Of a stretch of DNA of 15,436 bases, positions 1-15,436 are shown piece by piece. Under the pieces are notes generated by a model. The model was not told where the DNA came from. It did not search any database and worked only from the letters and a program-made list of their open reading frames with translations. Made by a program: the position numbers and the translations under genes. Position 1 is the stretch's first letter, and each line of letters opens with the position of its first letter. Source of the stretch: Betaproteobacteria bacterium (GTDB lineage: Bacteria > Pseudomonadota > Gammaproteobacteria > Burkholderiales > SG8-39); NCBI GenBank assembly GCA_011391295.1, contig JAABQT010000011.1, positions 1-15,436 on the forward strand. The letters run 5' to 3'.

Positions 1-1
1 C

Positions 2-835
2 GAGGCGGACTACGGCGAGGAACGCGCGCGGCGCCTGGTGGAACGCGAGTTCAACCTGTCCTACGCCGACGAGCTGCCCGGCCACAACCAGATTGTCGCC
101 GGCCGCTGGTTCGCGCGCGGCGCGCAGGAGCTTTCGGTGGAGGAGGGCATCGCCACCACGCTCGGATGGAAGCTGGGCGACGAGTTGGCGTTCACGGTCG
201 GCGCCGAGCGTTTCGCCGCGCGCATCAGCTCATTCAGGAAGCTGCGCTGGGACTCGATGAAGATCAATTTCTTCGTCATCGTGCCGCCGGCGCTGCTGCA
301 GGGCTATCCGGCGAGTTTCGTGTCCGCATTCCGCCTCGAACCGGGGCGCGAGGCGGTGATGAACGATCTGATCCAGCGCTTTCCCAACCTCACCACGGTG
401 GACATCAGCGCCGCGCTGCGCCAGGCGCAGGGCATCGTCGACCAGGTGATCAACGCGGTGCAGTTCGTGTTCCTGTTTGCGCTCGGTGCCGGCCTGCTGG
501 TGCTGTACTCGGCGCTGGTGGCGACCGAGGACGAGCGGCGGCGCGAAGCGGCGGTGATGCGCGTCTACGGCGCCTCGCGCCGGCAGGTGACCGGCAGCCA
601 GCGCGTCGAGTTCCTCGCCATGGGCCTGGTGGCGGGCATCCTCGCCACGCTGGGCGCGGCGGTCATCGGGCAGTTGCTGGCGCGGCGGGTGTTCGAGCTC
701 GATCTGCCGCCGAGCCCGGCGCTGTGGATCGCGGGCCCGCTCGCCGGGGTGCTGCTGCTGTCGTTCAACGCCTGGGTCTCCGCGCGCAAGGTGCTGACCG
801 CGTCGCCGGCGCTGACGCTGAGGGACTCGGTCTAG
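2..835 (+). CDS. FtsX-like ABC transporter permease, C-terminal part (YbbP type)
   Basis: The frame is open from the first complete codon at base 2 to TAG at 833-835, so the gene is cut at its 5' end and only the last 277 residues are visible. A soluble, probably periplasmic, stretch comes first (PGHNQIVAGRWF, then a region typical of MacB-like domains). Three hydrophobic segments follow, around VFLFALGAGLLVLYSALVA, FLAMGLVAGILATLGAAVI and LWIAGPLAGVLLLSFNAWV, with the cytoplasmic loop DERRREAAVMRVYGASRRQV between the first two. That loop and topology match the C-terminal FtsX domain of inner-membrane permeases. The YbbA/YbbP-type assignment rests on overall resemblance. The ATP-binding partner would be expected upstream, outside the window. 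The substrate cannot be read from the sequence. rmuC starts 8 bp after the stop, so the two are probably co-transcribed. Confidence 0.85.
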   Translation, partial: EADYGEERARRLVEREFNLSYADELPGHNQIVAGRWFARGAQELSVEEGIATTLGWKLGDELAFTVGAERFAARISSFRKLRWDSMKINFFVIVPPALLQGYPASFVSAFRLEPGREAVMNDLIQRFPNLTTVDISAALRQAQGIVDQVINAVQFVFLFALGAGLLVLYSALVATEDERRREAAVMRVYGASRRQVTGSQRVEFLAMGLVAGILATLGAAVIGQLLARRVFELDLPPSPALWIAGPLAGVLLLSFNAWVSARKVLTASPALTLRDSV

Positions 836-2436: not shown

Positions 2437-2614
2437 GCGCGATCCCTACCCGATCACCGACTACTGGTACGAGGTGACGGACGAGCAGATCCACGAGCAC
2501 CTGGCGCGCTCGCCGTTCGACCGTCTCAGGTGGCTGGACGAGGCGCGCCGGTTTACGCTGCTGGCGCGCAGCGCACCGCTGCGGTCCTATCGCAACGGCG
2601 AAGTGCTGGAATGA
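2426..2614 (+). CDS. Small protein of unknown function paired with the nucleotidyltransferase
   Basis: This 62-residue protein has no family I can name. It begins with a polar segment rich in Asp, Tyr and Glu (DPYPITDYWYEVTDEQ). An amphipathic helical stretch follows (PFDRLRWLDEARRFTLLARS), resembling small acidic proteins often found next to nucleotidyltransferase genes, and it ends with YRNGEVLE. It has no signal peptide, membrane segment or Cys pair. Its ATG lies inside the end of the nucleotidyltransferase gene (11-bp overlap), and its TGA overlaps the pfkA start as ATGA. This double overlap supports it as a real, translated gene coupled to both neighbours. It could be a binding partner or regulator of the nucleotidyltransferase, by analogy with two-gene systems; that is inference. 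Confidence 0.65.
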   Translation: MQAERDPYPITDYWYEVTDEQIHEHLARSPFDRLRWLDEARRFTLLARSAPLRSYRNGEVLE

Positions 2615-3582
2615 AGCGCATCGCGGTCCTCACCAGCGGCGGCGACGCGTCCGGCATGAACGCCGCGGTGCGCGCGGTGACGCGCTCGGCGCTGGCCCAA
2701 GGCTGGGAAGTGTTCGGCGTACGCAATGGTTACGCGGGTCTGCTTGCCGACGCGTTCGAGCCGCTGGCCGCGCGCGACGTGGGCGGCATCATCCAGCGCG
2801 GCGGCACCATACTCGGCAGCGCGCGCTGTCCCCAGTTCGCCGAGCCTGCCGGTCGCGCCCAGGCGCTCGCCCACCTCGCCGCGCACGGCATCGACGCGCT
2901 CGTGGTGGTCGGCGGCAACGGCTCACAGTCCGGTTCGGCGTCACTGGCGCGCGAGGGCTTTCCGGTCGTCGGCGTGCCATCCACCATTGACAACGATCTC
3001 TATGGCAACGACGTCAGCATCGGCGCCGATACCGCCATTAACGTCACCCTGGAAGCCATCGACCGGCTGCGCACCACCGCGTCCTCGCACCATCGCGCCT
3101 TCCTCGTCGAGACCATGGGCCGCAACTGCGGCTACATCGCGCTGATGGCCGGCATCGGCGGCGGCGCGGAGGTGATTGCCATTCCCGAAAGCGAGGTCGA
3201 GGCGCCCGAGGTCGCCGAGCGGCTGCGCGCGGCCTACCGCCGCGGCAAGTCGCACGCGCTGGTGGTGGTCGCCGAAGGCGCCAAGCACGGCGTGCAGGCC
3301 CTGCTCAAGCTCTACGGCGAGCAGCGCGCCAGCATCGGCTTCGATTTGCGCCTTACGCGTCTCGGGCACGTGGTGCGCGGCGGCGTGCCGAGCGCCGTCG
3401 ACCGCGTGCTCGCCACGCGCTTGGGGGCGGCGGCGGTCGACAGCCTCGCTGGGAACCGGCACGGCGTGTTGGTCGGCATGCAGCGCGGCGAGATCACTGC
3501 GACATCACTTTCCGAGATCACTGGACGCATGCGGCCGGCGGATACCGCGCTGGTTGAATTGGCACGCGTGCTCGCGATGTGA
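2611..3582 (+). CDS. pfkA: 6-phosphofructokinase, with atypical nucleotide-site residues
   Basis: A 323-residue phosphofructokinase that phosphorylates fructose 6-phosphate to the 1,6-bisphosphate in the cytoplasm. It can be numbered almost exactly like E. coli PfkA. SGGDASGMNAAVR forms the first nucleotide loop, GGTILGSAR gives R72, TIDND gives D127 and D129, SSHHR gives R162, MGR gives R171 and AEG gives E222. The later LTRLGHVVRGG block supplies the subunit-interface Arg and His, four residues later than in E. coli. The ATP-loop motif reads GGNGS rather than GGDGS (N103 instead of the Mg-binding Asp), and residue 124 is Ser (PSTIDND). G104 argues against a classic PPi enzyme, which has Asp there, but the donor is uncertain. 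The ATG at 2611 is chosen because it starts the conserved KRIAVLTSGG strand and overlaps the previous stop; the frame is open upstream from 2530. Confidence 0.92.
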   Translation: MKRIAVLTSGGDASGMNAAVRAVTRSALAQGWEVFGVRNGYAGLLADAFEPLAARDVGGIIQRGGTILGSARCPQFAEPAGRAQALAHLAAHGIDALVVVGGNGSQSGSASLAREGFPVVGVPSTIDNDLYGNDVSIGADTAINVTLEAIDRLRTTASSHHRAFLVETMGRNCGYIALMAGIGGGAEVIAIPESEVEAPEVAERLRAAYRRGKSHALVVVAEGAKHGVQALLKLYGEQRASIGFDLRLTRLGHVVRGGVPSAVDRVLATRLGAAAVDSLAGNRHGVLVGMQRGEITATSLSEITGRMRPADTALVELARVLAM

Positions 3583-3587
3583 ACAAG

Positions 3588-3643
3588 GCGCCTCGGCGAC
3601 GGGGCACCCGGGCAAACGTTTCTCAACAAAAAAGGTGAGGCGC
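3588..3643 (+). promoter_or_regulatory. Inverted repeat reaching the DUF3467 ribosome binding site
   Basis: A 7-bp inverted repeat, GCGCCTC at 3588-3594 and GAGGCGC at 3637-3643, flanks a 42-base loop in the leader between pfkA and the DUF3467 gene. The right arm overlaps the likely Shine-Dalgarno sequence GGTGAGG at 3634-3640, which sits 9 bases before the ATG at 3650. If the arms pair in RNA, the ribosome site would be masked. The long loop and GC-rich background make a chance match quite possible. No T-run follows, so this is not a standard terminator. Confidence 0.25.
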
Positions 3644-3649
3644 GACATC

Positions 3650-3991
3650 ATGGCAACCAAGACTCCAGAAACGACGGAAATCCGCGGCGACACTGCGGGC
3701 ATGAAGATCAAGTGGGACGATTCGAGCATGAAGAGTTCCTACGCCAACGTCTGTAACGTCACCAGTACGCGCGAGGAAGTGGTGATGCTCTTTGGCATGA
3801 ACCAGGCTTGGAACCGCGGGCAGACCGAGGTCAAGATCCAGCTGACCGACCGCATCGTGATCAGCCCCTACGCGGCCAAGCGCATGAGCCTGCTGCTGGC
3901 GAACGTCGTGAAGGAGTACGAGAACCGCTTTGGTACGCTCAATATCGACGCGGCGATGGGCGGCGGTACCGGTGGCGAGCCGAACAAGTAG
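3650..3991 (+). CDS. DUF3467 domain-containing small protein
   Basis: A 113-residue soluble protein matching the DUF3467 pattern. A short charged N-terminal tail is followed by SSYANVCNVTSTREEVVMLF, an antiparallel strand region, then TDRIVISPYAAKRMSLLLAN and a helix ending KEYENRFGTL. Family members commonly share this I-V-x-S-P-x-x-A-K turn and the terminal Y-E-x-x-F-G motif. The glycine-rich end (AAMGGGTGGEPNK) looks disordered. No biochemical function is established for the family. The ATG at 3650 has a good ribosome site (GGTGAGG, 9-base spacing). The 67-bp gap after pfkA suggests it may be separately expressed, and downstream it faces the treY remnant. It has no signal peptide or membrane helix. 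Confidence 0.82.
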   Translation: MATKTPETTEIRGDTAGMKIKWDDSSMKSSYANVCNVTSTREEVVMLFGMNQAWNRGQTEVKIQLTDRIVISPYAAKRMSLLLANVVKEYENRFGTLNIDAAMGGGTGGEPNK

Positions 3992-4090: not shown

Positions 4091-5512
4091 CTAAGTAACC
4101 AGCAGCGCCGCCACGGGGAAGCTGGCGCAGGCGCGAGCCAGGGCGATCGAACCGTCTTCGACCTCGAGGGTCTCGCCGGTGAGCACGTTGGCGAGTCGCG
4201 TGCCATCGGGCAGCCCGCCCGCCGCGCCGCGCGTGCCGGCCCATGCGTCCGCGCCCAGCGGCGGTTTCTCCGCCTCGCCGAGCAGCTTGGCAAACAGCCG
4301 TCCGCAGATCACCACCAGCGTCGCGTCAGCCTGCCGGCGCGCGTAGGCGAGCACGTGCTCGGCCCGCTCGCCCTGTGCATCGAGCGGCAGGTAACTGCCG
4401 TCGCGAAACAGTTCGGGCGTCCTGCGCCGCTGCTCGAGCAGGCGCCAGGTGGCCCACAGCTTGGCGCGGCCGTCCCCCGGCGCGACCAGCAGGGCTTGCG
4501 CAAATTGCGCCGTGCCTTGCGTCGTGCCTTCGAATTCATCCAGCAGCCGGCTGCGCAATTCGTAATCCACCGGGCGGCGGTTGTCCGGGTCGACGAGGCT
4601 GAGATCGACCAGCTCGCTGCCCTGGTACAGGTCGGGCACGCCGGGCGAGGTGAGCTGGATCACCGCCATGGCGATGCTGTTGAGGGCGCCGAACCAGGCC
4701 AGGGTGGCGGCCTGCGTGCGCAGATCGTCGAGAAAGGGATTGGGCTGCATACGCCCCAGCAGGGCGCGTACGAACGCGCTCAGCCCGCGTTCGTAGTCCT
4801 CGTTCGGGCTGATCCAGCTGGTGTTGGCCTTGGCTTCGCGCGCTGCCTTCAGCACATACTGCTCGATGCGCTCGCGGAACGTACCGAGCGCGGCCTCGTC
4901 CAGGTCCTGCGCTGGCAGGACGCCGAGCAGGGTCTGGTAAAGCAGGTACTCGTCGGCCGGCGAGGGCGCGAATCCGGCGTCCAGCTTGGTGCGGTGAGCG
5001 CGATTGAGCCGGCTCCAGCGACGCAGCGTGAGCCGCCAGGCGGCCGGGATCTCGGACAGGACATTGATGCGGTTGCGCACGTCTTCGCCGCGCTTGTTGT
5101 CGTGCGTCGACGTGGCGAGCATGGTGTGCGGCCAGCGCGCCGCGCGATCGGCGCGCTTGCCGAGGTAGGCCAGTTCCTCGAAGGTCTCGTCCTCGCGCGT
5201 AAAGGCGTGCCAGATGCGGTCGAACTTGGCTTGCGCGCTGCTGTCCACCAGCACCCCGTTCGCTACCATGGCAAAGTGGTAGCCCGTGGTGCCGTGCACG
5301 TGCCAGCTCTGCGGAACGTTTTCGTGCGGCGCCACGGTTTTCTCCACCGCCACGTACAGCGGGCGCGCGGGGCGGCCCCTGGGGTCGCGTGCCGGCCGCG
5401 CAATGCCGGCGCACCGGGCGTACCCCTCCTGCAGGCGGCGAAAGTACTGCGCCGGGTCGTACATCCCGTCGGGATAGTCGATTCGCAGCCCATCCACCGC
5501 GCCTGCGGCATG
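4091..5512 (-). pseudogene. treY: Maltooligosyltrehalose synthase, C-terminal part only (5'-truncated)
   Basis: TreY converts the reducing end of a maltodextrin to a trehalosyl unit. The minus frame is clear from about HAAGAVDGLRIDYPDG (His codon 5510-5512) to TAG at 4091-4093, about 473 residues. It keeps the GH13 nucleophile region (GLRID, Asp codon 5477-5479), the acid/base region (VAVEKTVAPHENVP, Glu codon 5342-5344), the STHDNKRGED block (Asp codon 5099-5101) and the late LTSPGVPDLYQGSELVDLSL. Upstream of 5512 the open frame continues to 5767, but its residues are Arg/His-rich and do not resemble TreY, because the same DNA codes for a GT20 tail on the other strand. About the first 230-250 residues, with the start of the barrel and the first GH13 region, are therefore missing. 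It is unlikely to make an active enzyme. The cause is a deletion or an assembly join. Confidence 0.85.
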
Positions 5513-5770
5513 GATCCCGCCGCGCGCCAGTCGCGCATGCACCGCATGCGCGTCTCGATCCGCGAGAACGACGTGTTCTTCTGGGTGGATTCCTACCTGC
5601 GTGCGGCGATCACCAAGGACCTGCGCGCCTTTCCACAACCCGAGGGGCGCATCGAGGAGGACGCGCCGGAGTACCAGCTGCCGTTCTCGCTCAGCCCAGG
5701 CCTTCGAACGGCTGCACCTGCACCGGTTCGCCGGCCTCGACCCGGCCGCGCTCGTGCTCCAGCACAATGA
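5501..5770 (+). pseudogene. C-terminal tail of a GT20 synthase (trehalose-6-phosphate synthase-like)
   Basis: On the plus strand the frame reads GMDPAARQSRMHRMRVSI, then RENDVFFWVDSYLRAAITKD and AFPQPEGRIEED. This matches the last helix of GT20 enzymes, where a Met-Pro-like segment is followed by an R-M-x-x-M-R helix, an x-N-D-V-x-x-W motif and a short helix to the C-terminus. OtsA-type trehalose-6-phosphate synthase is the likeliest parent, with glucosylglycerol-phosphate synthase as an alternative. About 85-90 residues remain of a normal 450-500. No GT20-like sequence lies to the left of about 5500, where the strand is antisense to treY. The frame stops at 5768-5770. Its last 26 or so residues are antisense to the moeA 3' end, are Pro/Arg/Ala-rich and may not be native. 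The identification rests on a short segment, so the family call is moderate. Confidence 0.6.
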
Positions 5771-6950
5771 AGCAATTGGCCTCGGACATCGAGCGCAGTA
5801 CCCCGGCGCCCTGCTGGCCGGTGGTCCTCACCTTCCACTCGCCGCCGTCGCGGAACATGAGCCCGCGCTGGTACTCGGTGCGCCCGGCAAGCTTGCGCAT
5901 CGGCTCCGCCGCCGGGACCTTGAGCAGGGGCAGGGCGCAGTCGCCCGTGCGTCCGGAGAGCTGCAGCAGGGCCTCGCGCACGAACTGGTAGAAGGTGACC
6001 ATCACGGCCACCGGGTTGCCCGGCAGGCCGAACAGGAACGCATTGCCGATGCGGCCGAAAGCCATCGGCCGGCCGGGGCGCATGGCGATGCGCCAGAACA
6101 GCGCTTCGCCCAACTGCGCCATCATCGGCTTCACATAATCGGCCTCGCCCACCGAGACGCCGCCGGTGGTGACGATGACATCGGCGTCCGCGGCCGCTTT
6201 TCTGAACGCGGCTTCGAGTTGCGCCGGGTCGTCCCGCACCACGCCCAGGTCCTGGATCTCCACCCCCAGCCGCATCAGCATGCCGTGCAGCGTGTAACGA
6301 TTGGAGTCGAAGACTTCGCCTTCACGCAACGCCGTGCCGATCGAGGCGAGTTCGTCGCCGGTGGAAAAGAATGCCACGCGCACGCGCCGCCGCACCTGCA
6401 CCTCGCCCAGGCCCAGCGAGGCGATGAGCCCCAGTTCCGATGGGCGCAGCAGCTGGCCGGGCCTGAGCACCGGCTCGCCCGTTTTCAGGTCCTCGCCGGC
6501 GTAGCGCACGTTTTGCCCGCGCTTCTGCCCGGCGGGCACGGTCACCTTGCCGTCGCGGAGCTTCACCACCTCCTGCACCACCACGGTGTCCGCGCCCGCC
6601 GGCATCACCGCGCCGGTGGTGACGCGCACGCATTGTCCGGTCCCGAGGGATCCGGCGAATTTCCTGCCGGCGAGCGCGGCGCCGATTTCCTCGAGCACGG
6701 TCTGGTCCGCGCCGAGATCTGCATGGCGCAGCGCGTAACCGTCCATGGCGCTGTTGTCGTGGCCCGGTACGTCGATCGCCGGCACGATGACCTGGGCGAG
6801 CACGCGCCCGAGCGCCTCGCGTACCGGCAGCCGCACGGATTCCGCCACCGGCACGAGGCAGGCACGGATCGCCGCGCGCGCCTTGTCCACGTGCAGCGCC
6901 TCGGGGTCGTAGCCCTCGATGGCATTGACGATCTGCAGGATGCGCGTCAT
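5691..6950 (-). CDS. moeA: Molybdopterin molybdenumtransferase MoeA
   Basis: MoeA inserts molybdate into adenylylated molybdopterin, the metal-insertion step of cofactor synthesis in the cytoplasm. The 419-residue length fits the family. Visible hallmarks are PGHDNSAMDGYALR near residue 65, VRVTTGAVMPAGADTVVVQE, the mononucleotide-binding region with FFSTGDEL and VIVTTGGVSVGEADYV, then MRPGRPMAFG and FLFGLPGNPVAVMVTF, and a C-terminal beta-barrel domain ending VQVQPFEGLG. The ATG at 6948-6950 overlaps the mobA stop as ATGA, so translation is probably coupled to mobA. The last 80 bp are overlapped on the opposite strand by the GT20 remnant frame, but the MoeA C-terminus itself reads as normal and complete. 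Confidence 0.96.
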   Translation of the reverse strand: MTRILQIVNAIEGYDPEALHVDKARAAIRACLVPVAESVRLPVREALGRVLAQVIVPAIDVPGHDNSAMDGYALRHADLGADQTVLEEIGAALAGRKFAGSLGTGQCVRVTTGAVMPAGADTVVVQEVVKLRDGKVTVPAGQKRGQNVRYAGEDLKTGEPVLRPGQLLRPSELGLIASLGLGEVQVRRRVRVAFFSTGDELASIGTALREGEVFDSNRYTLHGMLMRLGVEIQDLGVVRDDPAQLEAAFRKAAADADVIVTTGGVSVGEADYVKPMMAQLGEALFWRIAMRPGRPMAFGRIGNAFLFGLPGNPVAVMVTFYQFVREALLQLSGRTGDCALPLLKVPAAEPMRKLAGRTEYQRGLMFRDGGEWKVRTTGQQGAGVLRSMSEANCFIVLEHERGRVEAGEPVQVQPFEGLG

Positions 6951-7510
6951 GCGTTGTCCAGTTCTTCGCGCGTATTGATGTTGCGGAACGCGTCGGCCTG
7001 GTCGTCGAAGCTCACCTCCACGACCTCGAGGCTCGCGTACCAGGCGTCGATCTTGCGCCCGCCGCCGGACAGGAATGCGCTCAGGTGCTCGAACACCGAG
7101 CGACGCACCAGGGAGAATACCGGATGTGCCTGCACGCCGGTCCTTGCCACCGCGAGCTCGTGATCGCCCAGCGCATTGCGCAAGCGCGCCACCAGATCGG
7201 TCGGCAGAAAGGGCGAGTCGCAGGGCACGGTGACGCAGAGCGCGTGGCTCGCCGCTGCCAGCCCGGCATGCAGCCCGGCCAGCGGGCCGGCATGGCCGCC
7301 GATGGCGTCGGGCACCACGCGGTGGCCGAAGCGCGCGTAGGCCTCGAGGTTCTGGTTGGCGTTGACGATGATCTCGTCCACCTGCGGCGCAAGGCGCTCG
7401 AGCGCCCAGGCCACCATCGGCTTGCCGCGCAGCGGCTGCAGTCCCTTGTCCACGCCGCCCATGCGCCGCCCCTGGCCGCCCGCGAGCACGATGCCTGAAA
7501 CACCATCCAT
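6947..7510 (-). CDS. mobA: Molybdenum cofactor guanylyltransferase MobA
   Basis: MobA joins GMP to molybdenum-molybdopterin, giving the guanine dinucleotide cofactor used by DMSO-reductase-family enzymes such as formate dehydrogenase. The 187-residue protein opens with the nucleotide-binding signature GIVLAGGQGRRMGGVDKGL, has PLRGKPMVAWALERL next, and carries the metal-site segment VTVPCDSPFLPTDLV. The short length is normal for MobA without a MobB fusion. I chose the ATG at 7508-7510 because it lies just before the signature strand, although the frame remains open far upstream through the antisense of the MFS gene. It is divergent from the MFS transporter with only 30 bp between start codons, and its TGA overlaps the moeA start. 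Confidence 0.95.
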   Translation of the reverse strand: MDGVSGIVLAGGQGRRMGGVDKGLQPLRGKPMVAWALERLAPQVDEIIVNANQNLEAYARFGHRVVPDAIGGHAGPLAGLHAGLAAASHALCVTVPCDSPFLPTDLVARLRNALGDHELAVARTGVQAHPVFSLVRRSVFEHLSAFLSGGGRKIDAWYASLEVVEVSFDDQADAFRNINTREELDNA

Positions 7511-7540
7511 GCCCCGGATTTTACGAGGTAAGCTATTTGC

Positions 7541-8746
7541 ATGACCCAGAACCGCTGGCTGGTGCCGTTCCTCAACCTCGGTCACCTGCTCGACCACCTG
7601 GTGATGCTGGTGTTCCCGACCGCGGTGGTGGCCCTCGGCCGCGAATGGGGCCGCCCGTATTCGGAACTGCTGCCCCTCGCGCTGGGCGGCTTCATCGCCT
7701 TCGGCGCCTTCGCCATCCCCGCCGGCTGGCTGGCGGACCACTGGAGCCGCTACCGCACCATGGTGATCTTCTATTTCGGCATCGGTGCGTCCCTGTTCCT
7801 CACCGGCTTCGCGCAATCGCCCTGGCACATCGCCGCCGGCCTTACGCTGACCGGCGCCTTTGCGGCGATCTACCACCCTGTAGGCATCGCCATGTTGGTC
7901 GCCTCGTCGGCGAGGATGGGCCACGCGTTGGGCTGGAACGGTCTGTGGGGCAACCTCGGGCTCGCCGCGGCGGCGTTGTTTACCGGAGCGCTGGTAGATC
8001 TCGTGGGCTGGCGCGCCGCGTTTTTCGTGCCGGGCCTCGCCTGCATTGCGGCGGGCGCCGGGTTCCTGCTGCTGGTGCAAGACCCGGGCAAAGTGAAGAA
8101 ATCCTCCAGGACCATAGGCCTGCACATCGACGTCCGCACCATGGTGCGCGTGTTTGCCGTGCTGCTCGTCGCCACGGCCTTTGGCGGCATCATCTTCAAT
8201 TCCACCACGGTCTCCATGCCGAAAGTTTTCGACGAACGGCTGCGCGCGCTGACGCAGACCAATTTCGGCGTCGGCGGCCTGGTGGCCGTGGTCTACACGG
8301 TGGCGGCTTTCGCCCAGGTGGCGATGGGCGCGCTGATCGATCGCTTCGAACTCAAGCGCCTGATGATCGGCGTGGCGCTGGCGCAGATTCCGCTGCTGGC
8401 GCTTGCAGCACATACGCAGGGTTGGGCCATGCTGGTCGCCGCAGTGCTGATGATGCTTGCGGTGTTCGGGCAGATCCCGCTCAATGACGCCATCGTGGGG
8501 AAGTACTGCGCCGACGAGTTCCGCGCGCGCATGCTCGCGGTGCGGTATGTGGTGTCGCTGGGCGTGGCCTCGATCGCGGTGCCGATGATCGCCGTGTTGC
8601 ACGGCACCGAGGGTGGCTTCGCCAACGTGTTCCTGGTGCTTGCCGTTCTGGCCTCGTGCATGCTCCTGGCGAGCCTGTTCTTTCCCTCCCGTGGCGAATT
8701 CGCTGCGAGCAAACTGCGCGCCGCCGGGACGGCGGCCGCCGCCTAG
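7541..8746 (+). CDS. Major facilitator superfamily transporter
   Basis: A 401-residue integral membrane protein with about twelve hydrophobic segments, the usual MFS size. It begins NRWLVPFLNLGHLLDHLVML. The loop between helices 2 and 3 reads GWLADHWSRYRTM, matching the MFS signature G-x-x-x-D-x-x-x-R/K. The central loop carries QDPGKVKKSSRTIGLHIDVR, and the second-half counterpart is MGALIDRFELKRLMIG. The style recalls fosmidomycin-resistance-like MFS members, but the substrate cannot be called. A ribosome site GAGGT lies at 7525-7529. It sits between mobA-moeA and moaA-fdhD-gst, yet on the opposite strand and convergent with gst (3 bp between stops), so a link to molybdate, formate or a precursor is only a guess. 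Confidence 0.88.
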   Translation: MTQNRWLVPFLNLGHLLDHLVMLVFPTAVVALGREWGRPYSELLPLALGGFIAFGAFAIPAGWLADHWSRYRTMVIFYFGIGASLFLTGFAQSPWHIAAGLTLTGAFAAIYHPVGIAMLVASSARMGHALGWNGLWGNLGLAAAALFTGALVDLVGWRAAFFVPGLACIAAGAGFLLLVQDPGKVKKSSRTIGLHIDVRTMVRVFAVLLVATAFGGIIFNSTTVSMPKVFDERLRALTQTNFGVGGLVAVVYTVAAFAQVAMGALIDRFELKRLMIGVALAQIPLLALAAHTQGWAMLVAAVLMMLAVFGQIPLNDAIVGKYCADEFRARMLAVRYVVSLGVASIAVPMIAVLHGTEGGFANVFLVLAVLASCMLLASLFFPSRGEFAASKLRAAGTAAAA

Positions 8747-8749
8747 CCG

Positions 8750-9406
8750 CTATTGCGGCTTGTAGGTATCCAGCTTGACGCGCTCGCGCTCGAGCGCGGC
8801 CGCCACCGGCGGCGATTGCATCACGCGCTCGACGTAGGTCTTGTAGGCGGGCAACGAATCGGGGTCGATCCCAGCATAGCCGCCCCAGCGCAGCAGCGTG
8901 AACGCATAGGCGTCGTGGAAACCCGGCTTGTTGCCGAACCAGCAGGGCCCGGCCGCCTTGCTCCACTCCTGGATGCGCTCGAGGTGTGTGCGCAACTGCG
9001 CCGCGGCGAGGCGCTTCACATCAGCCTGGGCGGCCTCGCTCTCGGCGAAGTAGCCGGTGCGGAACCAGCGCGTGAACGTGGGGTGCACCGTATTGTTCAT
9101 CCACGCGAGCTGCGACAGCGCCTCGGCGCGCGCCCACGGCTCGGCAGGCAACAGTCCCGCCTTCGGGAACAACCGGTCGATTGTGTCGCAGATGGCCACG
9201 ATCTGGTGCAGCGGCTTGCCCTCGACCAGGAGCACCGGCACCTGGCCGTTGGGATTCATCGCCAGGAATTCGGGCTTCTTGTTCTCGCCCTTGTGCAGCT
9301 TGACCAGATTGGGCTTGAAGTCCGCGCCGGTGGCCGCCCTGACCACCTCGAGGCCGACGTGGGGAACGAAGGAACAGGCGCCGGGGGCGAAATACAGTTC
9401 GAGCAT
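8750..9406 (-). CDS. Glutathione S-transferase family protein
   Basis: A 218-residue cytosolic protein with the two-domain GST layout. The N-terminal thioredoxin-like domain starts LELYFAPGACSFVPHVGLE, which carries the Cys-Ser pair at residues 11-12 seen in beta-class bacterial GSTs, and includes MNPNGQVPVLLVEG with the cis-Pro loop. The all-helical domain carries the helix-capping motif in NKPGFHDAYAFTLLRW, where GST proteins usually have an (S/T)-x-A-D-like box; here the equivalent reads PGFHDAYA. Likely reactions are glutathione conjugation or peroxide and disulfide chemistry, with the substrate unknown. The ATG at 9404-9406 has AGGAG just upstream. It follows fdhD by 8 bp and is probably co-transcribed with moaA-fdhD, which hints at a detoxifying or redox role beside cofactor maturation. 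Confidence 0.88.
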   Translation of the reverse strand: MLELYFAPGACSFVPHVGLEVVRAATGADFKPNLVKLHKGENKKPEFLAMNPNGQVPVLLVEGKPLHQIVAICDTIDRLFPKAGLLPAEPWARAEALSQLAWMNNTVHPTFTRWFRTGYFAESEAAQADVKRLAAAQLRTHLERIQEWSKAAGPCWFGNKPGFHDAYAFTLLRWGGYAGIDPDSLPAYKTYVERVMQSPPVAAALERERVKLDTYKPQ

Positions 9407-9414
9407 GGCTACTC

Positions 9415-10260
9415 CTAGGCGATCGCCGTTTGCCGCGGCGCGGTGCTCAGCAGCCGCTGCCGGCCGGTAAAGGCGAGGTAGTGGCGGCCGCTGGCGCGGC
9501 CGAGCATGGTGATGCCGGTCTTTTGCGCGATCTCATGGCCCATCTGCGTCAGGCCCGATCGAGAGACGAGAAACGGGATGCGCATCTGCGCGCACTTGAT
9601 CACCATCTCGGAGGTCAGGCGCCCGGTGGTGTAGAACACCTTGTCCGAGCCGTCGATGCCTTGCAGCCACATGTAGCCCGCGATGGCGTCCACGGCGTTA
9701 TGCCGGCCGACGTCCTCGACGAACATCAGGATCTCGCCCTCGCAGGTGGCGAGCGCGCAGCCGTGCACGGCGCCGGCCTGCTTGTAGATGGTCTCGTACT
9801 TGCGCACCTTGTCGACCAGGGTGAACAGCTGCTCGTCGCCCAGAGACACGTCGTTCCTGAGCTTGATGCGCTCGATCTCCTCCATCAGGTTGCCGAACAT
9901 CGTGCCCTGGCCGCAGCCCGAGGTGACGGTGCGCTTGCCCATTTTCCTCTTCAGGTCCTTGACGCTCTTGCGCGTAGTGACGGCGCAGGATTCGGTCTCC
10001 CAGTCCACCTGCACCGCAACCACGTCCTTGAGCGCGCCGACCAGGCGCTGGTTGCGCAGATAGCCCAGGGCGAGCGCCTCCGGCGCGTGACCGAGCGTCA
10101 TCAGCGTGACCAGCTCCCGCTTGTCCAGGTAAAGGGTGAGGGGATGCTCGCCCGCCACCGCGGTAGGCACCATCTCGCCGCGCTCGTTGACCGCCTCGAC
10201 CTCGAACGTGGCGGGCTTGGCGGCGTCGGTGAGCTGGGGGCGGTAGGGCTTCTTAGCCAC
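9415..10260 (-). CDS. fdhD: Formate dehydrogenase accessory sulfurtransferase FdhD
   Basis: FdhD takes sulfur from a cysteine desulfurase and passes it to the molybdenum cofactor so that formate dehydrogenase becomes active. The 281-residue sequence shows the FdhD core: [71 protein letters not shown] and [20 protein letters not shown] followed by [10 protein letters not shown]. The usual CxxC near residue 116 is reduced to C116-G-Q-G119, so only one of the two cysteines is present. I chose GTG at 10258-10260, which overlaps the moaA stop by 8 bases (GTGGCTAA) and gives a normal length. An ATG at 10353 would add 31 unlike residues read antisense-free from moaA. It is translationally coupled to moaA and followed by gst. 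Confidence 0.92.
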
Positions 10261-11317
10261 CGATGTAGGACATCTCGATTTTGTGCTGCTTGGCGGTATC
10301 TGCAGTGCGGATTTCCGAATAGCGGTCATCGCGCGCGCGCCACACCGCGGCAATCTCGTTGACGATCACTTCGTCCGCGGCGCCGCGGCGCAGCAGGTGC
10401 TTGAGCGGATGGCCCTGCTGCGCGAACAGGCAGGTGAACAGCGACCCTTCGGCCGACAGGCGAAGCCGATTGCAGGTGCTGCAGAAGGCCTGCGTGACCG
10501 AGGAGATGACGCCGATCTCGCCCGCGCCGTCCCGGTAGCGCCAGCGTTCGGCGACTTCGCCCGTGTAGTTCGCGTCGGCGGCCTCGAGCGGGTAGCGAGC
10601 GCCGATCGCCTTGACGATCTCGGCCGAGGGCACCACCTCGTCCATGCGCCAGCCGTTGGTGCTGCCCACGTCCATGTACTCGATGAAGCGCACGATCTGC
10701 CCGGTGCCGCGCCAGCGCTCGGCCATCGCCAGCACGTGCGCGTCGTTCACGCCGCGCTTCACCACCATGTTGATCTTGATCGGCGCCATGCCGGCGGCAG
10801 CCGCGGCCTCGATGCCCTCGATCACGCGCGCGACCGGGAAATCGGCATCGTTGACGGCGCGGAAGGTGGCATCATCGAGCGAGTCGAGACTCACCGTGAC
10901 GCGCTTCAAGCCCGCCTGCGCCAGCGCTGTCGCCTGCCTGGGCAGGAGCGAGCCATTGGTGGTGAGTGTCAGGTCCAGGCCCGGGATCGCGGCGAGCAGC
11001 GCCACCAGGCGGTGCAGGTCGCGCCGCACCAGCGGCTCGCCGCCGGTGAGCCGGATCTTCTTCACCCCCAGGCCGGCGAACAGCCGCGCGAGGCGCGCGA
11101 TTTCCTCGAAGTTGAGCACCTCGTCGTGCGTCACGAACTTGAAATCGCGGTCGAATACTTCGCGCGGCATGCAGTACACGCAGCGGAAGTTGCAGCGGTC
11201 GGTCACCGAGATGCGCAGATCGCGCAGGCCGCGCCCGAGCATGTCCACGAGCGGCCGCCCGTCGTGGGGCGGGGCCGGTGCGCGTGCCGAGCTGATGGGA
11301 AAAACCTTCTGCGTCAT
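10253..11317 (-). CDS. moaA: GTP 3',8-cyclase MoaA (radical SAM, molybdopterin synthesis)
   Basis: MoaA catalyses the radical cyclisation of GTP that begins molybdopterin synthesis. The 354-residue protein has the radical-SAM cluster C42-x-x-x-C46-x-x-C49 ([13 protein letters not shown]), the SAM-binding GGEP motif in [26 protein letters not shown] in the barrel, and the second cluster site in [20 protein letters not shown]. It ends in SYIGG, the double-Gly tail that MoaA needs. The ATG at 11315-11317 gives a tail of about 40 residues before the first cysteine, somewhat longer than E. coli MoaA. Upstream codons to 11554 stay open but run antisense through the DUF3305 gene. It is divergent from DUF3305 across 58 bp and coupled to fdhD downstream. 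Confidence 0.96.
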
Positions 11318-11375
11318 AGTGTTTCTCGAACCTTGGATCATAGCAAACGGGGGGGATTGAGCTATAGTTCCCAGC
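11318..11375. promoter_or_regulatory. Divergent promoter region of moaA and the DUF3305 operon
   Basis: This 58-bp gap separates the oppositely directed moaA and DUF3305 starts, so it should hold promoters or operators for both the cofactor and the formate dehydrogenase accessory operons. On the minus strand TATGAT (plus coordinates 11337-11342) could be a -10 box about 20 bp before the moaA ATG, but I see no good -35 box. On the plus strand TATAGT at 11363-11368 lies only 7 bp before the DUF3305 ATG and would give an almost leaderless mRNA. A run of seven G is at 11349-11355. Confidence 0.4.
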
Positions 11376-11846
11376 ATGGAAAATCCGCGCTTTCCGGTGT
11401 CGGTGGTGATGCAGCGCCGCGCGTTGCAGAACCGCTGGCAAAGCGAAATCTGGGAGCCCGTTTCCGTGCTCCCGGGGCACAGCGAAGGCGAGCCGCGCAT
11501 CGTTGACGAGCAGCCGGCCATCACGCGCTGGGTGTACCCCCGTATGGAAATCATGCTGCGCGTGGCCGACGCTGACGGCTACTTCCTCAATGTTTCCACC
11601 AGCGAGCCCAGCGTGTTCGTGCTGTGGCGCCTGGAGGGTGTGCGCGCGGCCCCTTGCCACCTGACCGTGAGCTACAGCGAGGCGAGCAGCTGGATGGACG
11701 GCGGGGAAAACGTGGACCGCGTCCCCATGGCGCCCGAAATCCTCGCCTGGGTGAGCGAATTCGTGGTGCAGCACTACCGGCCGCAACCCAAGAAGAAAAT
11801 CCGTCCGGAGTCCTTCAAGAGCCCGAAGGACCGGGCCCGCATCTGA
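11376..11846 (+). CDS. DUF3305 domain-containing protein (formate dehydrogenase cluster)
   Basis: A 156-residue soluble protein of the DUF3305 family, a group found almost always beside formate dehydrogenase genes. The core reads [20 protein letters not shown], followed by WEPVSVLPG, the strand-rich section [20 protein letters not shown] and VFVLWRLEG, and it ends with the basic tail [19 protein letters not shown]. It has no signal peptide, membrane segment or cofactor motif. The family's role is not established; its genomic partners suggest help in assembly or regulation of the dehydrogenase. It is the first gene of the plus-strand operon, divergent from moaA, and its TGA overlaps the DUF3306 start by one base (TGATG). 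Confidence 0.85.
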
Positions 11847-12331
11847 TGGCGCAGGACGGCGAGGATTTCCTGCGGCGCTGGTCGCGGCGCAAGCTGGAGG
11901 TGGCCGCTGAGCCGGCGGTGACGAAGCCGGCGGCCGGCGAACCGCCGCCGCCGCTGCCGTCGCCCGACAGCCTGACCTTCGAGTCGGACTTCAAGGCGTT
12001 CATGCACGCCAAGGTCGAGGAAGGCGTGAAGCGCGCGGCGCTGAAGAAGCTGTTCGCAGACCCGCACTTCAACATCATGGACGGGCTCGACATCTACATC
12101 GACGACTACTCGAAGGACGACCCGATCCCGGCGGCGATGCTGGCGCAGCTGGAGCATTCGAAGACGACGCTGTTCGGACGCAAGCAGGAGCAGGAGAAGG
12201 AAAAGGCGCAGGAAGGCGAGGCGCCCGCGAAAACTCAACAGGCGCCGGAGGCACCGCCGCAGCAGCAGACCGCGTCGAACGACGCGCTCCCGCCCGAAGG
12301 TGCCGAGAACAAAGATGGCGCTGCAGGATAA
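11846..12331 (+). CDS. DUF3306 domain-containing protein (formate dehydrogenase cluster)
   Basis: A 161-residue protein of the DUF3306 family. The N-terminus has the family motif EDFLRRWSRRKLEV, followed by a Pro/Ala linker. The core is DSLTFESDFKAFMHAKV, then KRAALKKLFADPHFNIMDGL and DIYIDDYSKDDPIPAAML. After about residue 110 the chain becomes low-complexity and charged, with Gln, Glu, Lys and Pro runs (KQEQEKEKAQEGEAPAK), and looks disordered. No catalytic motif is visible and the function is unknown. It overlaps DUF3305 by one base, and its TAA lies 15-17 bases inside the next gene, so the three genes are tightly coupled. Confidence 0.83.
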   Translation: MAQDGEDFLRRWSRRKLEVAAEPAVTKPAAGEPPPPLPSPDSLTFESDFKAFMHAKVEEGVKRAALKKLFADPHFNIMDGLDIYIDDYSKDDPIPAAMLAQLEHSKTTLFGRKQEQEKEKAQEGEAPAKTQQAPEAPPQQQTASNDALPPEGAENKDGAAG

Positions 12332-14432
12332 GACGATCAAGCTGTGCAGCTGCAACGGCACCATGGCGCTGGACGCCAAGGCGCTGGCGGCGGTGCTGAA
12401 GCAGGCGACGCCGCTCACGGTTCACACGGAGTTGTGCCGCAAGCAAGTCGCGCAGTTTCAGTCCGGGCTGCACGAATCGGAAATTCTGGTCGCCTGCACG
12501 CAGGAGGCCGCGCTGTTCTCCGAACTGGCGCAGGCCGCCGAATCCAAGGCGCGCGTGGATTTCGTGAACATCCGCGAGAGCGCCGGCTGGTCGTCGCAGG
12601 CCGCGCGCGCGACACCGAAGATCGCGGCGCTGCTGGCCGTGGCGGCCTTGCCCGATCCGGAGCCGGTACCCAGCGTCTCGTACAAGTCCGGCGGCCAGCT
12701 CTTGATTCTCGGACCATCCGCGCCGGCGCTGGCGTGGGCACGTCGCCTGGTGGGCGAACTCGGCGGACCACTCGAGCCGAACGTGCTGATGACGCGGCAG
12801 CAAAGCGGTGAACTGCCCGTGGAGCGGGCCTATCCGGTCTGGTCCGGCAAGCCCCTGGGCATCAGCGGGCACCTCGGCGCATTCAAGCTCGAGTGGCAGC
12901 AGGATAATCCGATCGATCTGGATCTGTGCACGCGCTGCAACGCCTGCGTCGATGCGTGCCCGGAGAACGCGATCGACTTCACTTACCAGGTCGACCTCGG
13001 CAAGTGCAAGGCGCACCGGAAATGCGTGAGTGCCTGCGGCGCCATCGGCGCGGTCGACTTCTCGCGCGCGGATCGGGCGCGCAGCGAGACCTTCGACCTG
13101 GTGCTCGACCTCTCGGGCACGCCGCTGCTGGCGATGCCGGATCTGCCGCAGGGCTATCTTGCGCCGGGCGCCGACCCGCTCGAGCAGGCGCTCGCGGTGG
13201 CCAGGCTTGCGCAGCTGGTGGGAGATTTCGAGAAGCCGCGCTTTTTCCAGTACCGCGAAAGCATTTGCGCGCACAGCCGCTCCAGTGTGACCGGGTGCAC
13301 GCGCTGCCTCGACGTCTGCTCGACAGGTGCGATCCGCGCCGACGGCGATCACGTCAAGGTCGATCCGCATCTGTGCGCCGGCTGCGGCGGTTGCGCGACG
13401 GTGTGTCCTTCCGGCGCGATGACCTACGCGTACCCGCGCGCGCCGGACTTCGGCATGCGCCTGAAATCGCTGCTCGGCACTTACCGCGAGGCGGGCGGAA
13501 AAGACGCCTGCGTGGTATTCCACGATCTGGAGACGGGTCGCGAACTCGTGCAGGGGGTCGGGCGGCGCGCGGTGCGCGGCGGCAAGGGCTTGCCGGCGCG
13601 CGCACTGCCATCGGGGGTGTTCCACGTCGCATCGATCGGCATCGACGCCTTGCTCGGGGCGCTGTGCTACGGCGCGAGCCAGGTGGTGGTGGTGATGGAT
13701 GAGGACAAGCCCGAGGGCTACGCTGCCGCGCTGGCGGAGCAGATGCGATTTGCGCAGGCCATCGTCACCGGGCTGGGCTACCAGGGACGGCACTTCGAAC
13801 TGCTGCGCGTTGCGGACGCGAAAACGCTTGAGACGCGGCTGTGGGCGTTGGAGGCTGCGAGCGGCGTGGCGAAAAGCGCGGGCTTCAACTTCTCCGCCGA
13901 GAAGCGCACCACGCTCGATTTCGAGCTCGATCACCTGGCCAAGCAGGCCCCCGCGCCGCAAGAAATCGTCGCATTGCCGGCGGGCGCGCCATTCGGTGCG
14001 CTGGTGGTCAACAAAGTCACCTGTACCCTGTGCAAGGCATGCATCGGCGCTTGCCCGGAATCGGCGCTGCTAGACGCGGCCGACGCGCCGAGCCTGCGCT
14101 TCATCGAGCGCAACTGCGTGCAATGCGGGCTGTGCGAGGCGACCTGCCCGGAGGACGCAATTCAACTCGTCCCGCGCCTGCTGTTCGGGGCGCAGGCGAA
14201 GGAGCCGGTGGTGCTCAACGAGGCCGACCCGTTCCATTGCGTGCGTTGCGGCAAGGCGTTCGGCACGCGCCAGATGGTGGACAACATGCTCGGCAAGCTC
14301 GGCGGGCATTCGATGTTCGCCGGCGGCGTGGCACACAAGCGCCTGCAGATGTGCGGCGACTGCCGGTTGGTCGACATGATGGAAAACAAGAGCGAAGTCT
14401 CCGTCCTCGACCTCGCGCCGAGGAAGCGGTGA
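12315..14432 (+). CDS. Large multi-[4Fe-4S] ferredoxin-type protein of the formate dehydrogenase cluster
   Basis: A 705-residue iron-sulfur protein with no signal peptide, so cytoplasmic. Four full CxxCxxCxxxC sets start at C205, C354, C570 and C601, three of them in typical CP-E/S contexts. Two further sets are irregular: C231, C237, C241 (GKCKAHRKCVSACG) and C318 followed by C328, C331, C335. The N-terminus has KLCSCNGTM. The C-terminus has two CxxC pairs, 642/645 and 680/683, that look like a zinc or rubredoxin-like site. Middle parts carry Rossmann-like stretches around GQLLILGPSAPALAWARRLV and ASQVVVVMDED. Electron transfer to or from formate dehydrogenase is likely by context; partners are inferred. 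The ATG at 12315 was chosen over GTG at 12300. It overlaps DUF3306 by 17 bases and the next gene by 4. Confidence 0.88.
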   Translation: MALQDKTIKLCSCNGTMALDAKALAAVLKQATPLTVHTELCRKQVAQFQSGLHESEILVACTQEAALFSELAQAAESKARVDFVNIRESAGWSSQAARATPKIAALLAVAALPDPEPVPSVSYKSGGQLLILGPSAPALAWARRLVGELGGPLEPNVLMTRQQSGELPVERAYPVWSGKPLGISGHLGAFKLEWQQDNPIDLDLCTRCNACVDACPENAIDFTYQVDLGKCKAHRKCVSACGAIGAVDFSRADRARSETFDLVLDLSGTPLLAMPDLPQGYLAPGADPLEQALAVARLAQLVGDFEKPRFFQYRESICAHSRSSVTGCTRCLDVCSTGAIRADGDHVKVDPHLCAGCGGCATVCPSGAMTYAYPRAPDFGMRLKSLLGTYREAGGKDACVVFHDLETGRELVQGVGRRAVRGGKGLPARALPSGVFHVASIGIDALLGALCYGASQVVVVMDEDKPEGYAAALAEQMRFAQAIVTGLGYQGRHFELLRVADAKTLETRLWALEAASGVAKSAGFNFSAEKRTTLDFELDHLAKQAPAPQEIVALPAGAPFGALVVNKVTCTLCKACIGACPESALLDAADAPSLRFIERNCVQCGLCEATCPEDAIQLVPRLLFGAQAKEPVVLNEADPFHCVRCGKAFGTRQMVDNMLGKLGGHSMFAGGVAHKRLQMCGDCRLVDMMENKSEVSVLDLAPRKR

Positions 14433-15061
14433 GCGGCACCGCGCCCCTGCATTTCAAGCCGAATGTGTCTCCCGAAGACCACGCGCGCGCGCAGTTGTAC
14501 GGATTGGTGGCGCGATTGTTCCACTCGGCGCCCGATGCGCAGCTGCTGTCCGCGCTGGTGCATGCCGAAGGTTTCCCCCGGGACGACGCGTCGCGTACCG
14601 GGCAGGGTAAGGCGCTGGCCGCCGCGTGGCGCGAGATGGCCGACGCGTGCCGCCGCGCGTTTCCCGTACTGCTGGTGCATGAGCACACGGCGCTGTTCGC
14701 TGCGCCGGGGCGTGCGGCAGTGACCCCGTACCTGATGCACTACTCGATGCGATACGAGAGCGAGACGCCGCTGGTGGATTTGCGTGCGCTGCTTGCGGAC
14801 TGGGGCATCGCCCGCCACGAGAACGTCAACGAGCCGGAAGACCACGTGTCGGCACTGTGCGAAACCATGCGATTTTCCATTGCGGTGCAGCAACGAACCA
14901 TTGAAGAGCAGAAGGCGTTTTTCAATCAATACCTCTACCGGGGTGCGAGCAAGTTTTGCGACGCGGTAAAGGCTTCTGAGACTGCGCGTTTTTACAAGCC
15001 TGTTGCAGCATTCACGCGCGCATTCTTCGAGGTCGAGCGCGAGGCGTTCGAGATCGACTGA
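14429..15061 (+). CDS. TorD/DmsD-family molecular chaperone
   Basis: A 210-residue, mostly helical cytoplasmic protein of the TorD family, which binds Tat signal peptides or apoenzymes of molybdenum oxidoreductases until the cofactor is in. Visible blocks are HARAQLYGLVARLFHSAP, a central VHEHTALFAAPGRAAVTPYL, and the family region VNEPEDHVSALCETMRFSI, where TorD proteins carry a conserved P-E-D-H pattern. It ends with a helical segment AFTRAFFEVEREAFEID. The start is GTG at 14429, overlapping the previous stop as GTGA, with AGGAA at 14421-14425 as the ribosome site. Its natural client is probably the formate dehydrogenase catalytic subunit encoded just beyond the window. Confidence 0.88.
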   Translation: MSGTAPLHFKPNVSPEDHARAQLYGLVARLFHSAPDAQLLSALVHAEGFPRDDASRTGQGKALAAAWREMADACRRAFPVLLVHEHTALFAAPGRAAVTPYLMHYSMRYESETPLVDLRALLADWGIARHENVNEPEDHVSALCETMRFSIAVQQRTIEEQKAFFNQYLYRGASKFCDAVKASETARFYKPVAAFTRAFFEVEREAFEID

Positions 15062-15073
15062 CAAATCGAGGGC

Positions 15074-15117
15074 GAGAATGAATCTCATCTTGGCGAGGAT
15101 TGATGAGATCGGTTCTC
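15074..15117 (+). promoter_or_regulatory. Extended stem-loop downstream of the chaperone gene
   Basis: Two nested inverted repeats share one axis. ATCTCATC at 15082-15089 pairs with GATGAGAT at 15102-15109 across a 12-base loop. GAGAA at 15074-15078 pairs with TTCTC at 15113-15117 through a symmetric 3-by-3 internal loop. Thirteen matched pairs in 44 bases, starting 13 bases after the stop codon, are unlikely by chance. No long U-run follows, so it could be a weak terminator, an mRNA-stability element or a protein-binding site. Confidence 0.5.
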
Positions 15118-15137
15118 AGTTGGTCAATTTCCTTCTC

Positions 15138-15184
15138 TTGATCAATGGAAAAGTGAAGGTTAAGTTACACAGAATTTCACTTTT
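15138..15184 (+). promoter_or_regulatory. Candidate promoter with 9-bp inverted repeat (possible operator)
   Basis: TTGATC at 15138-15143 and TAAGTT at 15161-15166 are spaced by 17 bases, a sigma-70-like layout with modest box matches. A perfect 9-bp inverted repeat, AAAAGTGAA at 15149-15157 and TTCACTTTT at 15176-15184, has one arm in the spacer and the other near the expected start site, the geometry of an operator. TTGATCAA at 15138-15145 is itself a palindrome and resembles TTGGTCAA at 15120-15127. The region is AT-rich compared with the rest of the window. The promoter call is inferred; the repeats are seen directly. Confidence 0.4.
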
Positions 15185-15223
15185 GCCCTGGGTTTTGCTT
15201 CGGGGCCCGAATACGCCAGACAC

Positions 15224-15230
15224 AAGGAGG
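15224..15230 (+). promoter_or_regulatory. Strong ribosome binding site that decides a GTG start
   Basis: AAGGAGG sits six bases before GTG at 15237. It is the best Shine-Dalgarno match in the window and fixes the start of the small Tat-leader gene, whose frame is otherwise open further upstream. It suggests high translation of this gene despite the GTG codon. Confidence 0.75.
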
Positions 15231-15236
15231 CGCGCC

Positions 15237-15434
15237 GTGAGCCAGAAAAACGCCAAGCTTTCCCGCAGAAATTTCCTGTTGAGCGTCGGTGCCGGGGGTG
15301 TCGCCGGTGCGGCCGCGATCGTCGGGGGCAAGCAGGCCCTGCAGGGTTCGTCGACCGAGGGTGACAAGCGCAAGTCTCGCGGCTACCAGGAGACGGCGCA
15401 CGTGAACAACTACTACCGCACCGCCAAGGTCTGA
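15237..15434 (+). CDS. Small Tat-leader protein of the formate dehydrogenase region
   Basis: A 65-residue protein starting at GTG. It opens with a short polar stretch and the twin-arginine motif SRRNFLLSVG, then the hydrophobic Ala/Gly segment GAGGVAGAAAIVGG, and a short polar tail ending HVNNYYRTAKV. This matches the formate dehydrogenase region Tat-target family (TIGR02811), a small protein that usually sits directly before the catalytic alpha subunit gene. It is probably exported or membrane-tethered through the Tat system, perhaps riding with the dehydrogenase, but its role is not established. The gene is complete here and ends two bases before the window edge. Confidence 0.85.
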   Translation: MSQKNAKLSRRNFLLSVGAGGVAGAAAIVGGKQALQGSSTEGDKRKSRGYQETAHVNNYYRTAKV

Positions 15435-15436
15435 GG

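Follow-up and report, generated by a model that had tools for sequence, protein, structure and literature searches.

Two truncated trehalose genes and their neighbours

The window, that is, the whole stretch of DNA analysed, is the entire contig C13 (15,436 bases) of a genome assembly, G000, of 2.08 Mb in 420 contigs that is 62% complete; the nearest genomes compared with it, G001, G002 and G003, belong to the same genus. Between a phosphofructokinase gene and moeA, the window carries remnants of two trehalose-pathway genes, treY and otsA, which lie head to head, each without its 5' part:

2605-3582, plus strand: phosphofructokinase gene (pfk), left neighbour; close to treY in G002 and G018 as well
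3689-3991, plus strand: DUF3467 gene, between pfk and the treY remnant
4097-5149, minus strand: treY remnant, C-terminal part; approximately residues 1391-1735 of the 1738-aa MalQ-TreY fusion of G003
5150-5154: putative inner deletion junction; shared bases GGCGC; ~486 bp (162 codons, in frame) absent relative to G002
5155-5489, minus strand: treY remnant, middle part; approximately residues 1113-1228 of the fusion, the first few within the outer junction
5490-5503: putative outer deletion junction; 14-nt core CCATCCACCGCGCC; overlap of treY and otsA homology; ~17.6 kb absent relative to G003
5504-5686, plus strand: otsA (GT20) remnant; last ~65 of ~500 codons
5687-5689, plus strand: position of the otsA stop codon; TCG in the window, TAG in G001, G002 and G003
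5691-6950, minus strand: moeA, full length; directly to the right of otsA in G001 and G002 as well, and at a distance of 1.1 kb in G003

Comparison with TreY (TIGR02401; MalQ-TreY fusion, PRK14507) shows that two stretches of the window protein match and that the N-terminal part and ~160 internal residues are missing. Matches to TIGR02401 in the window's own genome are confined to 4103-5155 (minus strand; model positions 510-836) and 5156-5542 (minus strand; model positions 242-352), and the two pieces align to TreY of G003 at 4097-5161 and 5150-5515. The internal gap of ~160 residues, which escaped the preliminary description of this DNA, measures 486 bp by anchor words in G002 and 480 bp from BLAST coordinates, both multiples of three. 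The TreY domain comprises residues 796-1735 of the G003 fusion (940 residues), of which ~460 are left in the window, ~317 N-terminal and 162 internal residues having been lost. The whole window frame matches PRK14507 (E 1.4e-166) and TIGR02401 (E 5.9e-127) under both curated cut-offs; against TIGR02401, the model by which a functional TreY was judged, it scores 425.1 bits, compared with a cut-off of 498.65, with model positions before 242 and 353-509 absent. The stretches DGLRIDYPDG and STHDNKRGED, which we take to lie near the catalytic residues of TreY, are still present. Because so much of the domain is gone at its N-terminus and internally, TreY activity of the fragment is, judged from the sequence, very unlikely.

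The treY remnant contains no stop codon in 470 codons (4100-5509). For its C-terminal part, dN/dS is 0.37 (window-G002), 0.36 (window-G003) and 0.35 (G002-G003); for the short middle part, it is 0.14-0.22 in comparisons with the window vs. 0.33 for G002-G003. (The G002 MalQ-TreY stretch used for dN/dS has one stop; the TreY part of G002 is listed without stops.) In this test for relaxed selection on the remnants, dN/dS is thus not raised in comparisons with the window, and the stop codon of otsA is gone. An open frame of 558 aa at 4091-5767 (minus strand) would correspond to the twice-deleted treY remnant with a 5' extension antisense to otsA and moeA, and automatic annotation could mislabel it as TreY.

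For otsA, comparison with GT20 OtsA proteins (TIGR02400/PF00982) shows that the last ~65-76 residues resemble the OtsA-like proteins of G001-G003 and that ~86% of the gene is gone. Only residues 433-502 of the G003 OtsA (502 aa) match, at 5471-5686 (plus strand), and residues 420-495 of the 495-residue G001 OtsA match 5462-5686 with 85% identity (E 6e-37). Identity to G001 is 97.4% for the otsA remnant and 91.6% for moeA. A search of Pfam with the in-frame 72-aa GT20 fragment returned no family, a search of NCBIfam returned a weak match (PRK14501, E 0.00076, inside the long frame 4355-5770), and PF00982 has no match across the genome assembly; the TIGR02400 or PF00982 match by which a functional OtsA was judged is absent. 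Because the fragment is too short for Pfam and weak in NCBIfam, its identity as OtsA rests on the relatives, in which the intact OtsA-like proteins score 541 bits (G003) and 536 bits (G001), just under the TIGR02400 cut-off of 565, and 469 bits against PF00982, far over the cut-off of 32.5. The loss of the otsA stop codon, also unremarked in the preliminary description, fits a gene that is no longer needed.

Elsewhere in the window, positions 5691-15436 hold molybdenum-cofactor and related genes (moeA, FdhD, a MoaA-like radical SAM protein, a protein with many 4Fe-4S domains, and a Nitrate_red_del, TorD-like, chaperone). A nucleotidyltransferase-like gene (DUF6036) at 1930-2436, between rmuC and pfk, is missing at the matching place in G002 (contig C350, 1275-1278).

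The junction and the corresponding island in relatives

DNA alignments to relatives show that minus-strand treY homology changes over to plus-strand GT20/OtsA homology at ~5490-5503. From 5490 rightwards, the DNA of G001 and G002 aligns with the window (89% and 82% identity), and otsA-side DNA of G003 aligns with 5490-5690. On the other side, the treY match ends at 5503 in G002 and 5509 in G003, and at 5491-5494 in three other genera (G018, G019 and G026). Profile matches (TIGR02401) and alignments to relatives' TreY and OtsA proteins bear out the preliminary description in that both genes lack their 5' parts, are divergent, and meet at one point; the change-over it placed at codon 5510-5512 is real, but sits slightly to the left, at ~5490-5503.

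A short, imperfect repeat is present at the junction. The core CCATCCACCGCGCC at 5490-5503 is identical in otsA of G001, and treY of G002 and treY of G003 each match G001 otsA at 11 of its 14 positions, a level reached by 0.026% of random position pairs. Other pairs of relatives, with otsA of G002 or G003, match at 9-10 of 14 positions (random pairs, 0.2-0.8%), and a scan of treY with the core shifted by two bases finds words matching at 10-11 of 14 positions at other treY places too. These scores are for relatives' sequences, which stand in for the ancestor's own treY. Searches of the window with ARAGORN, and with Rfam at gathering thresholds, detected no tRNA or other RNA feature that might have served as an integration site.

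In G003, contig C80 carries treY, otsA and moeA in the order and orientation of the window, with the corresponding break points at 23872 (treY) and 6278 (otsA), 17.6 kb apart. Between the break points, the remainder of the MalQ-TreY fusion (1738 aa) is followed by treZ, glgX, a gene for a mechanosensitive-channel-like protein, treS-maltokinase, glgE, glgB, another mscS-like gene, and the remainder of otsA. (Gene names are from NCBIfam; TreS was scanned as the G002 orthologue, GlgE was named by Pfam and solved structures, and the channel-like proteins score under their NCBIfam cut-offs.) The two flanks of the window junction are thus neighbours in a relative, with order and orientation kept and with extra DNA between them, as at a deletion scar. 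The proposal in the preliminary description that one deletion took both 5' ends together with further tre/ots genes therefore agrees well with G003, which has the same genes with treZ, treS, glgE, glgB and glgX between them; its suggestion that a promoter shared by treY and otsA was part of the deleted DNA does not, since the two genes are far apart there.

Parts of the same arrangement occur in other genomes. In G002, pfk, malQ-treY and the end of treZ lie on contig C350, and the stretch from a partial glgX to otsA-moeA lies on C129. In G018, from another genus, a single contig (C75) carries pfk and treY together with the 3' portion of a moeA gene, in the same orientation. Among the matches listed, treY and moeA sequence share a contig in G003 and G018. 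A survey of the family found TreY in 20 of 61 genomes (with a query whose start lies ~72 residues into the domain) and OtsA in 31 of 61 (most matches at 33-43% identity, in long frames), counts that include G000 and fragments. Besides G000, only G018 among the matches listed has treY and otsA less than 1 kb apart on one contig, and its pair is full-length or nearly so and lies tail to tail. A conserved compact treY-otsA arrangement is not seen across the matches listed for the 61 genomes.

In the part of an account of Pseudomonas aeruginosa that bears on these genes (PMC8084333), trehalose and GlgE genes form two predicted operons, and otsA and otsB are given as absent. To judge from that part, treS-maltokinase, glgE, glgB, malQ, treY, treZ and glgX occur both in the P. 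aeruginosa clusters and in the G003 island; in G000, by comparison, this set would be deleted, and otsA would have lain at the island edge.

Probable pathway loss in the genome and in a sister genome

At the locus, the TreY/TreZ, OtsA and TreS routes to trehalose and the GlgE route to alpha-glucan are absent or truncated. To determine whether the genes lie elsewhere, the G000 assembly was searched. Protein searches with TreY and OtsA found the window as their sole match in the 62%-complete assembly, and protein searches with OtsB, TreS, TreZ and GlgE found no match in it. Island DNA, by which alone GlgB and GlgX were sought, matched only the otsA remnant and some short sequences, none longer than 58 bp (40 first-look candidates scored per search). 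The search for intact treY, treZ and otsA that the preliminary description had proposed thus found none, but in an assembly only 62% complete, a level that leaves room for intact copies elsewhere in the genome. Among the titles listed by a literature search, none deals with the loss of trehalose in this lineage.

The sister genome G001 shows a different state of the island. Its contig C15 carries full-length pfk followed directly by the first ~118-130 residues of GlgB (1059-1505) and then otsB, a trehalose-phosphatase gene at the start of the contig that scores over its cut-off; a nearly complete otsA lies at the start of contig C47, beside moeA, and the contig ends suggest that C15 and C47 abut. 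TreS, TreZ and GlgE have no match in this fragmented, 88% complete assembly. In G001, a different deletion seems to have taken everything from treY through most of glgB and to have spared otsB-otsA. We considered whether the G001 deletion could be the ancestor of the G000 state and rejected this, as G001 is without the treY part that G000 has kept. Since neither state can be derived from the other, the island has probably been cut independently, at least twice, in two sister lineages.

Two further observations concern G001. On contig C64 (9702-10342), residues 21-152 of GlgB are followed by residues 1657-1735 of TreY in another frame, beside a glucokinase-like gene (named by eye), a combination that may represent another decayed copy of the island. 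On contig C71, a second OtsA-like match lies in a 770-aa frame, with an OtsB-like match beside it.

Origin of the join

Four accounts of the join were weighed. According to the first, the site is the scar of a genuine chromosomal deletion. According to the second, the 17.6 kb and the ~486 bp were dropped by an artefact confined to the locus (chimeric amplification, gap closing, or a strain-consensus error), and the organism keeps the island. An artefact of this kind would suit a highly fragmented, 62%-complete assembly and remnants without visible decay apart from the stop codon, and amplification chimeras also arise at short homologies. To set against this, the otsA remnant has lost its stop codon, the island was not found elsewhere in the assembly beyond short hits, and the sister G001 is also without TreS, TreZ and GlgE matches. 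In addition, two deletions would have to fall in the same 1.4 kb, compared with one gap of at least 24 nt (a gap of 27 nt) inside aligned blocks over 81.9 kb of G000 aligned to G001. That comparison set 39 of the 420 G000 contigs against ~1.0 Mb of G001; 15 of the contigs matched, over 81.9 kb. Between aligned blocks, there were nine length differences of more than 60 nt, with G000 the shorter in two and the longer in seven; one of the nine falls in the window (1-835 and 2609-3611 vs. G001 C15). Within the window, alignments to G001 of pfk and of the genes on the right-hand side of the scar have no gap longer than 8 nt. Widespread deletion errors in G000 are not seen in the part compared (81.9 kb). 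Collapse at a repeat during k-mer assembly is unlikely, the common stretch being ~14 bases, below the usual k-mer of assemblers. On balance, we consider a within-locus artefact improbable. (In the G000-shorter case inspected, G000 C27 2762 vs. G001 C21 1584-5882, an RND efflux pair is present only in G001, where an amidase gene and an RNase G-like gene meet; these genes were named by eye.)

A contig joined from two unrelated loci or from two organisms, the alternative offered in the preliminary description, would explain why both sides are truncated at a single point; against it, the two sides are neighbours in G003, with the right order and orientation, and both match G001 (left, 95.6% and 88.4%; right, 89.1% and 78.8%). 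Because gene order and orientation are the same in G003, a deletion between genuine neighbours accounts for the join better than a chance fusion does, and we give the joined contig next to no weight. It is likewise very hard to credit, on the sequence, that the remnant was retained because a shortened TreY, or a fused product of the 558-aa frame, would be functional. The in-frame inner deletion, the freedom of the treY remnant from stops, and dN/dS below 1 would be in keeping with such a product, but a deletion stays in frame by chance one time in three, long open frames arise by chance in G+C-rich DNA (the window has 73 frames of at least 80 aa), OtsA retains ~14% of its length, and TreY falls short of its model by the positions given above (425 bits vs. 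a cut-off of 499). We conclude, with a probability of roughly 0.83, that the site is the scar of a genuine, fairly recent chromosomal deletion. Remnants with so little decay imply that the deletion is recent or that it is an artefact, and we read their fresh look as a recent deletion.

According to the history that we propose, an ancestor would have carried pfk, treY, a set comprising treZ, glgX, treS-maltokinase, glgE, glgB and others, otsA, and moeA, in this order, an arrangement still whole or partial in relatives; what the immediate ancestor's island held, we infer from them. A deletion between short similar stretches of treY and otsA (the 14-nt core at 5490-5503) would have removed ~17.6 kb, comprising both 5' parts and everything between, probably through replication slippage or end joining. 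Before or after this event, ~162 treY codons would have been lost in a separate deletion, in frame and ~486 bp long, with short repeats at its ends (5150-5154). Both remnants would now be pseudogenes, the TreY domain with ~460 of 940 residues and OtsA with its last ~65 residues and no stop. In view of the second deletion in treY, the trehalose routes may or may not all have been lost in one event, as the preliminary description suggested for the maltodextrin- and UDP-glucose-based ones. If the outer deletion is real, a single break cost the organism several ways of making a common stress protectant, together with the linked alpha-glucan store.

What is most interesting in the finding is that the sister genome probably has a second, independent deletion. 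If this is real, two sister lineages cut the island differently, and the genus is a natural experiment, on a small scale, in when bacteria abandon trehalose. It is tempting to go further and to suppose that sister species of the genus are independently losing the entire trehalose and GlgE alpha-glucan island (in G000 from the treY 5' part to the otsA 5' part, in G001 from treY to most of glgB), and that the recurrence of this loss may stem from selection against the stock in their habitat; we regard this extension as speculative and rather doubtful.

The locus is, in biological terms, an ordinary pathway deletion with pseudogene remnants, and a new example of a known process. Like known deletion scars at short repeats, it has truncated genes, short stretches of bases in common at the junction, and missing genes that are present in relatives. 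Nothing notable sets it apart from them, except the apparent independent deletion in the same island of the sister genome.
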